Shown in pieces: positions 38,632 through 48,497 of a DNA stretch of 64,000 nt; within the stretch, counting starts at the first letter, position 1, and every line of letters begins with the position of its first letter. Below the pieces are notes generated by a model. It ran no database searches. It saw only the letters and a program-made list of their open reading frames with translations, and was not told where the DNA came from. A program made the position numbers and the translations under genes. This DNA comes from Oceanospirillaceae bacterium. Lineage in GTDB: Bacteria > Pseudomonadota > Gammaproteobacteria > Pseudomonadales > Balneatricaceae. The DNA lies in the NCBI GenBank assembly GCA_029938085.1, contig JAPYOS010000009.1:1-64000 (forward strand), in the 5' to 3' direction.

Positions 38632-39291
38632 GTGCAACCATCTTGCCTGCTTTGTGGTCGCCACCCTCACTATCGACATAACATATGCCAAGCATGCCTA
38701 CTGGATTTACCTTGGGCTCAGCCATCCATAGTGAATCAAACGCTGGGATATACCTATTCCGTATGCGCCTTGGACTATTTACCACCCATCAACGGACTCA
38801 TTAAACAGTTTAAACATCAGCGCAATTTAGCGGCTGGACGCTTGCTTGCGTTTAGTTTATCTCAAACCATAAGCTCAGCCTTGTTAGAACAACAAATGTA
38901 CCGGCCACAACTGTTGATTCCTGTACCGTTACACAGTACTCGGTTGAGGCAGAGAGGTTTTAATCAAGCAGAGTTCATCGCCCAAGGGCTAAGTAAGGAC
39001 CTGCACATCCCCATGTGCAAAAGCCTTTGCCGGCGACTCGGTGATCAGTCACCACTACAGGGCCAGAATCGGCGTCAACGCCTGAGGCATATGCAAGGTG
39101 TATTTGAGGTCAATACTAAAGAAGTGAGTTCGCGGTTACACAGTATCGCCATTATTGACGATGTCACAACCACAGGAGCGACGGCACAAGCGCTAAGCAG
39201 TTGCCTACAAAGTGCTTGGCCTGGGCCCCTGCACATTCAATTATGGTGCTTAGCTAGAACGCCAGCACCAAAAACGCAACTTGAATGGTAG
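38632..39291 (+). CDS. comF: ComF-family phosphoribosyltransferase-like protein
   Basis: Protein of the ComF/GntX group, needed in naturally competent bacteria for moving single-stranded DNA inside. A four-cysteine zinc motif (CLLC and CQAC) opens the protein, and a type I PRT domain follows with the PRPP loop IIDDVTTTGAT near residues 178-188. The start is GTG at 38632. It is divergent from bioB across the BirA operator and converges on csrA with 5 bases between stops. Together with the type IV minor pilins it leaves open the possibility of competence. Confidence 0.88.
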   Translation: MQPSCLLCGRHPHYRHNICQACLLDLPWAQPSIVNQTLGYTYSVCALDYLPPINGLIKQFKHQRNLAAGRLLAFSLSQTISSALLEQQMYRPQLLIPVPLHSTRLRQRGFNQAEFIAQGLSKDLHIPMCKSLCRRLGDQSPLQGQNRRQRLRHMQGVFEVNTKEVSSRLHSIAIIDDVTTTGATAQALSSCLQSAWPGPLHIQLWCLARTPAPKTQLEW

Positions 39292-43619: not shown

Positions 43620-44111
43620 TTATTTTGGCTGCGTTTGCAGCGCGTATTGGATCTGCTCTTGAGCAAAACCACGTTGATACAAATATCGTGCTTGCTTGGC
43701 CCGTGCTGGCGCATTGGTAACAACACACCAACCACAGTGCTTGCGCTTTTGCGCAAGGGCAATTTCAAACCAATCTGGCTGTTGCGCGTCCACCTGCGAT
43801 TGCACTAACAAACGGTTTAAACCGTATTGATGACCCCACTGATAAATGCGGGTAACACCATAGCCGTCGTTGGCCTTTGAACGCACCAATACTTCTGCAA
43901 ACCGTTCGTCAGACTGCAAACCTTGGCGCTCTAACTCATCAAGCAAATGATCTAAATCTACAAGCCAATCTTTTGCTAGACATTTGATCTGCAATTTCTG
44001 TAGCAATTCACTACGAGATTGTTCGCGTTGCGCCAACAATCCCATGGCTTGATAGCGCAATGACGCTAACTGTTTATTGCTCTTGTCTTGATCATGCTCA
44101 ACATCCGTCAT
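43620..44111 (-). CDS. recX: RecA regulator RecX
   Basis: Small helical protein that caps RecA filaments and inhibits recombinase activity. It has RecX triple-helix repeats (for example LLAQREQSRSELLQKL near residues 27-42 and the C-terminal YLYQRGFAQEQIQYAL). The likely start is ATG 44111, with AGGTGG about 12 bases upstream. It follows recA after about 16 bases and is therefore probably SOS-induced with it. Confidence 0.92.
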   Translation of the reverse strand: MTDVEHDQDKSNKQLASLRYQAMGLLAQREQSRSELLQKLQIKCLAKDWLVDLDHLLDELERQGLQSDERFAEVLVRSKANDGYGVTRIYQWGHQYGLNRLLVQSQVDAQQPDWFEIALAQKRKHCGWCVVTNAPARAKQARYLYQRGFAQEQIQYALQTQPK

Positions 44112-44127
44112 GGGTAACAACGCCCAC

Positions 44128-45162
44128 CTAAAATGTGAGCGGCGTTACCACGTCAGCAGCTTCTTCCGCTTTAGGGATAGCCAATAGCTCATCACGGATT
44201 TGCTGTTCAATTTCTAACGCAATCTCAGGGTGATCTAGCAAGTATTGCGACGCATTGGCTTTACCTTGGCCAATTTTATCACCCTTGTACGCATACCAAG
44301 CACCGGCCTTGTCTACTAGGTTTTGCTTGACTCCTAGGTCGATAATTTCACCCATACGATAGATGCCTTTACCGTAAATAATTTGGAATTCGGCCTGCCT
44401 AAATGGCGGCGATACTTTGTTCTTCACTACCTTCACTCGGGTCTCGTTACCAATGACTTCATCGCCATTTTTAACGGCGCCAATGCGGCGAATGTCCAAG
44501 CGTACAGAAGAGTAAAATTTCAAAGCGTTACCACCGGTTGTGGTCTCTGGACTACCAAACATAACACCAATCTTCATACGAATTTGGTTAATGAAGATCA
44601 CCAAACAATTAGCGTTTTTGATATTACCTGTAATTTTGCGCATAGCTTGCGACAACAATCGCGCTTGCAAACCCACATGGCTTGCGCCCATTTCACCTTC
44701 AATTTCGGCCTTAGGTGTAAGTGCTGCAACCGAGTCAATAATGATCACATCAACCGCACCAGAACGTACCAACATGTCGGTAATCTCTAAAGCCTGCTCC
44801 CCAGTGTCCGGCTGACTTACCAATAAATCGTCAACATTAACACCGAGCTTTTCTGCATAACTTGGATCCAAGGCATGCTCAGCATCAACAAAGGCACAGG
44901 TCTTGCCGATTTTTTGTGCTTCGGCGATAACCTGCAAAGTGAGTGTTGTTTTACCGGATGACTCTGGGCCGTATATTTCACAAATGCGGCCAAATGGTAA
45001 GCCGCCTATGCCCAGGGCAATATCTAGCCCTAAAGAACCGGTAGACACCGATGGAATGGCTTCACGTGGCTGGTCACCCATGCGCATGACTGCACCTTTG
45101 CCGAACTGACGCTCAATTTGACTTAGGGCCGCGTCGAGAGCTTTTTGTTTGTTTGCATCCAT
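44128..45162 (-). CDS. recA: recombinase RecA
   Basis: Strand-exchange ATPase and LexA co-protease. Walker A is GPESSGKT (near residues 66-73), and the L1/L2 DNA loops ([35 protein letters not shown]) are intact. It is 344 residues long. The start is ATG 45162 (MDANKQKAL); an in-frame ATG three codons upstream is also possible. Two LexA boxes lie upstream. The C-terminus is less acidic than in E. coli. Confidence 0.98.
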
Positions 45163-45215
45163 GTGATTCACCTTAAATTACGGCTATTGCCTATGCGCTA
45201 TGTGCAACATTTACA

Positions 45216-45231
45216 CTGTAATTACATACAG
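45216..45231. promoter_or_regulatory. LexA (SOS) box 1 of recA
   Basis: CTGTAATTACATACAG, an exact CTGT-N8-ACAG site with AT-rich centre, 54 bases before the recA ATG. Confidence 0.88.
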
Positions 45232-45234
45232 TAC

Positions 45235-45250
45235 CTGTGTATTTGTACAG
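45235..45250. promoter_or_regulatory. LexA (SOS) box 2 of recA
   Basis: CTGTGTATTTGTACAG, a second exact CTGT-N8-ACAG site only 3 bases from box 1 (centres 19 bases apart). Confidence 0.85.
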
Positions 45251-45288
45251 TATTAAAACATAACCAGAAAAAAGTGCAAGGGTTATTC

Positions 45289-45792
45289 TTACAAGCAGGG
45301 TAAATGCGCTCTATTCATCCCTTCTAACGCTGCCGCTATGGTCTGCTGACGTACACTTTGACGGTTGCCTACAAACTGAAAAAGCTCACTCGCTACCGCC
45401 CCATTTGATTGCGCCCAGGCGACCCACACACTGCCTACAGGTTTTTCTGCGGTGCCGCCACTTGGCCCTGCAACGCCACTCACCGCAACACAAACGTCAG
45501 CGTTTAACGCCCGACACCCACCCAAAGCCATCGCTTCTACCACCGCCTCACTAACCGCGCCATGGGCTTCTAACAGCCCTGACGACACCTTGAGGAGATT
45601 AATTTTGGCGCTATTGCTGTAACTGATAATGCCCCCAGAGAACCACCCAGAGCTACCTGCTACAGCGGTTATTTCAGCCCCTATACCGCCGCCGGTACAT
45701 GATTCTGCGGTGGCCATGATTAAGCCTTTTTGACTTAACCTACCGCCAAGCGCCAAGATTAAATCATGCTGTTTCTGTAGTTGGTTGGACAT
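45289..45792 (-). CDS. pncC: nicotinamide-nucleotide amidase (CinA C-terminal domain)
   Basis: Deamidates NMN to nicotinate mononucleotide in pyridine nucleotide recycling. The single CinA C-terminal domain is marked by AESCTGGGIGAEIT near residues 29-42 and VSGVAGPSGGT. At 167 residues it is the stand-alone form without the N-terminal MPT-binding domain. It lies upstream of recA and divergent from mutS, a conserved gammaproteobacterial arrangement. Confidence 0.94.
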   Translation of the reverse strand: MSNQLQKQHDLILALGGRLSQKGLIMATAESCTGGGIGAEITAVAGSSGWFSGGIISYSNSAKINLLKVSSGLLEAHGAVSEAVVEAMALGGCRALNADVCVAVSGVAGPSGGTAEKPVGSVWVAWAQSNGAVASELFQFVGNRQSVRQQTIAAALEGMNRAHLPCL

Positions 45793-45926
45793 CTGTGCTG
45801 CTCTTACGGTTGAGACCCCTTAATGATGCCAGCTTGTGTCGATCAGTCAAGCAAGTTTTATTGTTCAGCCTCGCTCGATTGAAGTAACATATGGCATTCA
45901 TTTAACTCCTTTCGGATACACCCTTC

Positions 45927-48497
45927 ATGGCAGCCTCTGCACCGTTAAGTAACCACACTCCCATGATGCAACAGTACCTTGGTATTAAGCGCGACCACCC
46001 TAACGATCTGGTGTTTTACCGCATGGGGGATTTTTACGAGTTGTTCTATGACGACGCTAAGAGCGCTTCTGAGTTACTTGATATTTCCCTTACATCAAGG
46101 GGCCAGTCTGCCGGGCAGCCCATACCTATGTCAGGCATCCCTTATCATGCCGCTGACGGCTATATTGCCAAAATTGTGAATGCCGGCCGCTCCGTTGCTG
46201 TGGCCGAGCAAATTGGCGACCCCTCCACCAGCAAAGGCCCTGTAGACCGTAAAGTAGTGCGCGTGGTTACCCCAGGCACCCTCACCGATGAAGCGCTAAT
46301 GGATGCAGGCAGCGAGCGTTTACTTACGGCAGTGTACCAATTACAGGGTCGCTACGGCATTTCTAGCTTAGATATGAGTAGTGGTCGATTTTCGTTACTT
46401 GAAGCTGACTCTGCTGACCAACTACACACCCAATTACAGCGCTTAAAACCGGCTGAGTTATTGTTTGACGAAAGCAGTGATATGCTGATCCAGATTCAAG
46501 ACTGGCCCTGCCGTAGGCCACAAGCAACTTGGAACTTTTCCCTTGATACCGCTCAGCGTTTGCTATGCAACCAATTTAATACCCGCGATTTGAGCGGCTT
46601 TGGCTGTGATGAAATGGCCGCTGCCATCTGTGCTGCGGGCTGCTTACTCAACTATGCCAAAGAAACTCAAAAAGGAGAACTGCCTCATTTACGTAACTTG
46701 CAGGTTGAATTGGCCCAAGACACTCTGATACTCGACGGACCGAGCCGAAAAAATCTGGAAATCGATCAAAACGTCCAAGGCGGCGACCAATTCACCCTAG
46801 CCCAAACCCTTGATTCAACCTCCACACCCATGGGTGGGCGGTTGTTGCGCCACTGGCTCAACAATCCGTTACGCTGCATCAACACCTTACATCAGCGCCA
46901 AGATTTTATTGCACAAGCCATAGAAACAGATATTACCGAGTCGCTGCAACTGTCACTTAAGCCCATTGGCGACATTGAACGCATATTGTCTCGTATTGCG
47001 CTACGCTCAGCACGCCCAAGGGACCTGTCACGTCTCAGCGCCAGCTTGCAAGCTTTGCCTCAACTGCAACAACACTTAAGCCTACTAGACACTGCCAAAT
47101 CGGCGTCCTTGGCCAAAAACATCAATCAATTTCCCGAGTTAGTTCAACTCTTAGATCAGGCCATTATCGAAAACCCACCGGTCATCATCCGCGACGGCGG
47201 TGTTATTGCCGAAGGCTATGATGCCGAACTCGATGAACTACGTGGTTTAAGTCAAAATGCGGGTCAGTTCTTGCTAGACCTAGAAACCCAAGAACGCGAA
47301 CGCACTGGCTTGTCGACCCTTAAGGTGGGTTATAACAGGGTGCATGGTTATTATATTGAGATCAGCAGGTTACAGTCGGGCCAGGCACCTACTGAATATG
47401 TGCGCCGCCAAACGCTGAAGAACGCTGAACGCTTTATTACCCCCGAGCTCAAAACTTTTGAAGACAAAGCTCTGAGTAGCAAGAGCCGCTCATTAGCCAG
47501 AGAAAAGGCACTATATGAAGCCCTTGTTGAACAGTTGGCAGGACACCTAAGCGACCTTCAGCTTGCGTCAGATGGCATTAGCGAACTGGATATTCTCGCC
47601 TGCCTAGCCGAGCGAGCCGTTAGCCTAGACTTAGTACAGCCACAATTAACTGAACAAGCGGGCATCAATATTGATCATGGCCGCCATTTGGTTGTCGAAC
47701 AGTTGATCAGTGAACCTTTTGTTGCCAACGACTGCTGTCTCTCAGCTAGCCAAAGTATGAAAATCATTACTGGGCCAAATATGGGTGGTAAGTCCACCTA
47801 CATGCGGCAGGTAGCCCTGATCGTTATCATGGCTCAAATAGGGTCTTTTGTACCTGCAAAAAATGCCAGCATTGGCATTGTAGATCGTATATTTACACGT
47901 ATGGGCAGCAGTGACGACCTTGCAGGTGGTCGTTCAACCTTTATGGTGGAGATGACAGAAACCGCCAATATACTAAACAACGCAACCCATCAAAGCCTAG
48001 TGCTCATGGACGAAGTAGGCCGTGGCACCAGCACCTTTGATGGCCTCTCACTAGCCTGGTCCTGCGCCTTCAACCTAGCCCAAGACATTGCTGCGCTGAC
48101 CTTATTCGCCACTCACTATTTTGAAATGACGCATTTAGTCGACCAGTTGACGCAAGTGGAGAATGTGCATTTAGACGCGACCGAACATGGCGACAGCATT
48201 ATCTTTATGCACAAAGTGTTGCCCGGCCCAGCGAGCCAAAGCTACGGTTTACAAGTGGCTAAACTGGCAGGTGTACCTCTCAACGTAATCAATGATGCAC
48301 ACACTAAATTGCAACAACTTGAGGTAGATGACGGTTCAAGCAAGCCTAGTAAATCAACCACACCATTACAAACCGATTTATTCAGTAGCTTGCCCCATGC
48401 CGTGGAAAGTTTGTTGCAAAACAACAACGCCGACGACATGACACCAAGGCAGGCCCTGGACCTAGTTTATCAAATGCAACGCGCCCTAAAACAATAA
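45927..48497 (+). CDS. mutS: DNA mismatch repair protein MutS
   Basis: Mismatch-recognition ATPase. The Phe-x-Glu wedge that stacks on mispaired bases is in [13 protein letters not shown] near residue 35. The connector, core, clamp and ATPase domains follow; Walker A is GPNMGGKST near 618-626, Walker B is [14 protein letters not shown], and a C-terminal helix-turn-helix dimer region ends the 856-residue protein. It converges on rpoS with 15 bases between stops. Confidence 0.97.

Follow-up and report, generated by a model that had tools for sequence, protein, structure and literature searches.

The recA gene of the window (the whole stretch of DNA analysed, 64,000 nucleotides) is preceded by two exact LexA boxes that, judged on their sequence, are a real, conserved and functional-looking pair. 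We read this pair as a double LexA operator: two LexA dimers would lie side by side, each blocking the one promoter, and the result would be tighter repression (a probability of about 0.75). One of the boxes is shared with relatives that have a single box; the other looks like an addition made within the genus.

The recA operator and its promoter

As the earlier note had placed them, the two boxes lie 3 bases apart and 19 bp centre to centre, and they span 54–88 bp upstream of recA (Table 1). Read along the recA strand, the distal box (45250 to 45235) comes first, followed by GTA, the proximal box (45231 to 45216), 53 bases, and the ATG. The same note described the spacing as close to two helical turns, which is loose; with 10.5 bp to the turn, 19 bp makes 1.8 turns and puts the dyads ~70 degrees apart. 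Downstream, recX is probably cotranscribed with recA; upstream, beyond the cinA/pncC-like gene, lies a divergent mutS.

Table 1. Features of the recA region in the window; elements marked putative are read from the sequence.
Feature	Position	Strand	Details
recX, immediately downstream of recA	43620..44120	-	matches to 13 NCBIfam RecX models, the best at 92.3 bits and below its own cut-off of 189
recA, 344 aa, ATG at 45162	44128..45162	-	NCBIfam TIGR02012, 558.8 bits (cut-off 325.3)
Putative ribosome-binding site TAAGGT	45170..45175	-	read from the sequence
Proximal LexA box	45216..45231	-	exact CTGT-N8-ACAG; CTGTAATTACATACAG on the forward strand, CTGTATGTAATTACAG on the recA strand; profile 23.4 bits; about +15 to +30
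Distal LexA box	45235..45250	-	exact CTGT-N8-ACAG; CTGTGTATTTGTACAG on the forward strand, CTGTACAAATACACAG on the recA strand; profile 21.9 bits
Putative recA transcription start region, inside the distal box	45243..45247	-	5–9 nt past the -10 hexamer
Putative extended -10 element TG-T-TTTAAT	45252..45260	-	TG and TTTAATACTG invariant in 13/13 genus genomes
Putative -35 element TTGCAC	45274..45279	-	16 nt before TTTAAT; same distance in 13/13 genus genomes
cinA/pncC-like gene, upstream neighbor of recA	45289-45792	-	boxes sit in the 126-bp intergenic gap

Directly upstream of the distal box is a putative promoter, TTGCAC, 16 nt, TGnTTTAAT, that is common to 13 genomes of the genus; many members of the family have a TTGCA-type and a WWTAATA-type sequence at the corresponding place (by eye). 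Because this element directly precedes the distal box, transcription would start inside that box. The promoter is not of the E. coli recA type, in which the box is located between the -35 and -10 elements; the putative elements are wholly upstream of both boxes. A strict sigma-70 scan detects no promoter at the locus, the proposed upstream promoter included; the second base of its -10 hexamer must be A, and TTTAAT does not have one there. A third, overlapping box (e.g., CTGTGCTTTAATACTG in G014, 13 bp upstream) looks like a TGnTTTAATACTG promoter element that resembles a box, and it was not counted.

A lone exact box is unremarkable in 64 kb, because the window contains three such sites against 1.03 expected (12 of 100 shuffles reach three). 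The third (38921-38936; L040) lies within an open frame with a weak, sub-cut-off match to a double zinc ribbon, presumably a comF-like gene; with a profile score of just 14.9 bits, this site probably occurs by chance. Across the genome there are 18 exact sites (six in the reversed control), and by our arithmetic the chance of any two lying 0–12 bp apart is ~0.002 per genome; one such pair is found, and the reversed control contains none. Loose matching is uninformative: at a spacer of 3 bp, with as many as three mismatches tolerated, this genome has six pairs and the control five; when at most two mismatches are allowed, only the pairs at recA (none) and lexA (two) are left. Thus, although single boxes are common enough, a chance origin is ruled out by the pair itself, together with the footprint and the spread described below.

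We also scored the sites with a 20-bp LexA profile built from 253 sites, all outside the genus. The proximal and distal boxes are the top two sites in the window (the next score 14.9 and 7.7 bits). Both have the exact palindrome of a gammaproteobacterial SOS box, and both fall inside the middle half (19.6–23.7) of the training sites. With the same profile, the two lexA boxes of this genome reach 21.2 and 17.9 bits and the single box before imuA (ImuA by NCBIfam) scores 29.1 bits; the E. coli recA operator, in the sequence that we take it to have, scores 23.7 bits, near the window boxes. A separate observation concerns a 91-aa frame (L034:1541-1813; G000:C35) that has no Pfam or NCBIfam match and a LexA box of 27.8 bits 25 bp upstream; this frame may resemble yebG.

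The genome encodes one copy of LexA (PF01726, 100.3 bits; TIGR00498, 244.3 bits). Its recognition region, LGFKSPNAAEEH, is identical in the solved chain 8s7g and is LGFRSPNAAEEH in 7b5g, which we take to be the E. coli protein; by its sequence, the genome's own LexA has an E. coli-type recognition helix.

Conservation within the genus and a single box beyond it

The genus set comprises 15 genomes, including the window's own; 13 contain recA, and the two that do not are 67% and 72% complete. As in a lexA-type double operator, in which two boxes within about two turns are conserved together, the pair occurs at 19 bp in 13/13 of these recA promoters; both boxes are exact in 11 of them, and the other two have decayed copies (G005, matching 7 and 8 of 8 positions; G012, 6 and 7 of 8). 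All 13 have a 3-bp spacer, and the stretch from the proximal box to the ATG varies (32–60). In the ten-genome clade that includes the window, the mean pairwise identity is 0.45 upstream, 0.88 in the distal box, 0.96 in the proximal box, and 0.43 downstream (0.41, 0.85, 0.83, and 0.40, respectively, for all 13 genomes); because the ten genomes are closely related, part of this identity is inheritance, and the weight lies on the contrast with the flanks. The decay of both boxes in G012 and of one in G005 shows that selection on the pair is less than absolute.

Outside the genus, pairs are the exception. Each of the 44 members of the family that belong to other genera has, within 260 bases of recA, a box matching 7/8 positions or better; a pair at a pitch of 16–27 is absent from 43 of them, and one (G039) is paired at a pitch of 24. 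A 19-bp pair with both boxes at 7/8 or better occurs in none of the 44, and when 43 of these family members are scored at exactly 19 bp, the best second site matches 6/8. The family's single box follows the promoter element, that is, it has the place of the distal box (by eye; including G046 and G052). In the rest of the order, 26 of the 32 genomes with a recA upstream region have a box without a pair, four have no box, and two have two boxes at 7/8 or better at a pitch of 16–27 (G065, pitch 19; G088, pitch 16, possibly by chance). Of at least 594 named recA loci, the best 80 were scored, and none of these has two such boxes at a pitch of 16–30 within 300 bases.

From these comparisons, we take the unpaired arrangement as the rule and the distal box as the old one; the distal box looks ancestral and the proximal box looks like a gain at the level of the genus. 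The earlier note would have counted the loss of one box in relatives against the pair. Within the genus this does not apply, since both boxes persist there (with decay in G005 and G012); outside the genus it does, as the proximal box is missing.

Pairs nevertheless recur at recA elsewhere in the order. In addition to two genomes of the window's genus (G000 and G011), exact pairs precede recA in G146 (pitch 18) and in G155 and G182 (pitch 25). Near-exact pairs at pitch 19 (7 and 7 of 8 positions) are found in G065, G216, and G237 and, in another genus of that family, in G141 (6 and 8 of 8) and G193 (6 and 7); G114 has a near-exact pair at pitch 18 (7 and 8 of 8), and G257 (L327) has a more decayed pair. 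Besides the window's own family, three others contain recA pairs.

In a RecA tree of 83 rows, 22 of them labeled as paired, at least six changes are needed (five if G039 is counted as single), and constraining the 21 others to one group is rejected (p-AU 0.00445); this is a quick tree of one gene, with labels refined after an earlier tree had been seen and genomes partly chosen for having pairs. The relaxed pair labels of G052 and G040 were dropped as chance-like, and that of G039 (pitch 24) was kept and then counted as single too; G257 (L327) and L161 (more than two stops) were left out, and G141 was kept with 20% of the kept columns filled. On this evidence, the recA pairs in other families are probably of separate origin. 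A broader proposal is that closely packed pairs of LexA operators evolved several times at recA in one order to give a multiplicative two-dimer switch and that, in the window's genus, recA and lexA, as the two arms of the SOS feedback loop, share a 19-bp design and are tuned together; we regard this as tentative and would sooner bet against it than for it.

Two further features were seen next to recA in other genomes. Genomes of genus g87 have, in addition to a complete recA, a partial second copy ~11 and 23 kb further along the same strand (residues ~200–339; L334, G155:C4:59454-59876, with one stop in G155; L333, G182:C21:120144-120557); G182 has a gene with a weak phage-integrase match near recA, and none of five frames scanned in G155 matched an integrase. 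This arrangement could have arisen when an element integrated into recA and regenerated the 3' end of the gene. Just past recA-recX in G182, one open frame (L336:2681-3973) combines a match to positions 1–67 of the serine hydroxymethyltransferase profile with a sub-cut-off match to phage integrase.

The lexA gene, present in 14 of the 15 genomes of the genus, is preceded in 14/14 by two boxes with the same 3-bp spacer (19-bp pitch). Order-wide (390 genomes), 100 genomes contain an exact pair with 0–12 bp between the boxes, for 111 pairs by our sum; the reversed control contains 24 pairs in 22 genomes, many of these from one genus. We classified 105 of the 111 (the others are in G244, G081, G116 (two), G313, and G166): 55 are before lexA (43 at pitch 19), five before recA, and 45 before other or unidentified genes, one 'recA' (L300, 24% identity) having been moved to the last group as ImuA-like. 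Because 55 of the 105 are before lexA, the pair is not special to recA and is chiefly a lexA arrangement in this order. Five frames beside such pairs in other genomes include one RecN/SMC match, two SulA-like proteins, and two without a match. Separately, thirteen genomes of genus g42 in family f27 (L278-L280, L282, L284-L292) have an exact pair at pitch 18 beside a gene other than lexA or recA; the single neighboring frame tested (L279:228-815) has no Pfam match.

The pitch ranges from 16 to 20 at lexA and is 18, 19, or 25 at recA. We rejected a helical rule for 19 bp, since lexA pitches of 16–20 occur, and also the idea that the recA pair is a plain copy of the lexA operator, because the distal recA box is common to the single-box relatives (by eye).

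A second dimer and its alternatives

In the double operator that we propose, a LexA dimer on the distal box, within which transcription would start, would block RNA polymerase or promoter escape, and this would be the ancestral single-box design of the family. The genus would then have gained the second box within the early transcribed region (see Table 1), two dimers would sit adjacent with either able to block the promoter, and recA(-recX) would be freed only once both are off. Because the promoter would be free only when both dimers are off, the repression factors of independent sites would multiply with no need for cooperation; induction would be steeper and would require lower LexA levels, again without dimer–dimer contact.

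That the pair represses recA more tightly than one box is plausible by analogy with an engineered promoter. A box added at the Vibrio natriegens recA promoter in E. coli Nissle 1917 lowered the baseline from 3588 to 2089 and the maximum from 18844 to 7088 (PMC8601168, Table 3); dividing these figures, we obtain an induction range of 5.3-fold before and 3.4-fold after the addition. The paper itself states a 5.2-fold drop, which takes the wild-type box as its reference; relative to the matched one-box construct the drop is 1.7-fold.

The second site might instead be a spare one that arose by chance, binds LexA, and hardly alters expression. This possibility draws on the E. coli lexA promoter, for which the cited part of PMC7440846 describes a single strengthened operator that did the work of two and behaved like the pair in every test, and on the decay in G012 and G005; however, a drifting site would not be expected to have a proximal identity of 0.96 in the window's clade against 0.43–0.45 in the flanks, nor to appear repeatedly at recA elsewhere, so we consider it unlikely.

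The earlier note had suggested that the pair could allow cooperative binding and later induction; in the cooperative reading, two dimers touch across the 19-bp pitch to form a sharp switch. The fixed 3-bp spacing, seen at every recA and every lexA promoter of the genus that was compared (13/13 and 14/14), and the predominance of pitch 19 among the classified lexA pairs in the order (43 of 55) fit such contact, but constant spacing within one lineage may be plain inheritance. The lineages differ in pitch at both genes, 19 bp is a non-whole number of turns, and, in the portion of the study cited, expression from the paired lexA operator of E. coli revealed no interdimer cooperativity (PMC7440846); the cooperative claim is therefore unsupported, and we judge it quite improbable.

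Less probable by far is an arrangement of two promoters with one box each, in which the proximal box would control another recA promoter further downstream. One could be imagined around that box because the recA box of E. coli and V. natriegens lies between the -35 and -10 elements (as listed in Table 2 of PMC8601168). In the genus, however, the sequence past the proximal box contains no conserved hexamer of the -10 type; the next 20 bases are 0.40–0.43 identical, and with nothing conserved downstream a second promoter is very unlikely. The empty sigma-70 scan points the same way, although it missed the proposed upstream promoter as well.

A conserved leader hairpin in place of a LexA site is scarcely credible: each palindrome could pair in a transcript, but the leader folds no better than its shuffles (z 0.34), positions 44000-46000 have no Rfam match at the gathering score, and only the proximal palindrome would be transcribed whole if the start lies in the distal box.

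Comparison with known LexA operators

The double operator that we propose would matter beyond this gene, because the sister genera offer a natural comparison, that is, the same promoter core with and without a second box, probably with repeated origins. If the pair sharpens or delays the induction of recA, it would show how the number of operators sets the timing of the SOS response; if it has no such effect, it would argue that paired operators are near-neutral. Among the open-access matches listed, no title or abstract opening names a naturally occurring pair of LexA boxes upstream of recA in Gammaproteobacteria; the subscription literature is mostly outside this set, so this is weak evidence of absence.

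Single-box recA operators (E. coli, V. natriegens, and family f1) resemble that of the window in having a LexA box at the recA promoter, and the distal box corresponds to the single box of family f1; the window differs in its extra second box. It also differs in position, with both boxes after the putative -10 element, whereas that of E. coli and V. natriegens falls between -35 and -10, according to the promoter descriptions cited from PMC8601168.

Promoters that take two or more LexA dimers are also described for recN, with its multiple operators, and for the colicin genes, with their overlapping SOS boxes (PMC7440846 and PMC2994835). In contrast to the overlapping colicin boxes, those in the window are separated by 3 bp and belong to recA.

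The closest likeness is to lexA. The lexA genes of the order and operators I and II of E. coli lexA share with the window two adjacent LexA boxes at one promoter; the E. coli boxes are 21 bp apart, and the lexA of the genus itself has the 3-bp spacer found at the window's recA. Two boxes are likewise ascribed to lexA in the cited text of PMC2994835, and, in that of PMC7440846, both E. coli operators repress and the inactivation of one weakens repression. The difference is in the gene, since the lexA double operator stands before lexA and the window's pair before recA; the recA pair is a variation on well-known SOS control, in an arrangement better known from lexA.
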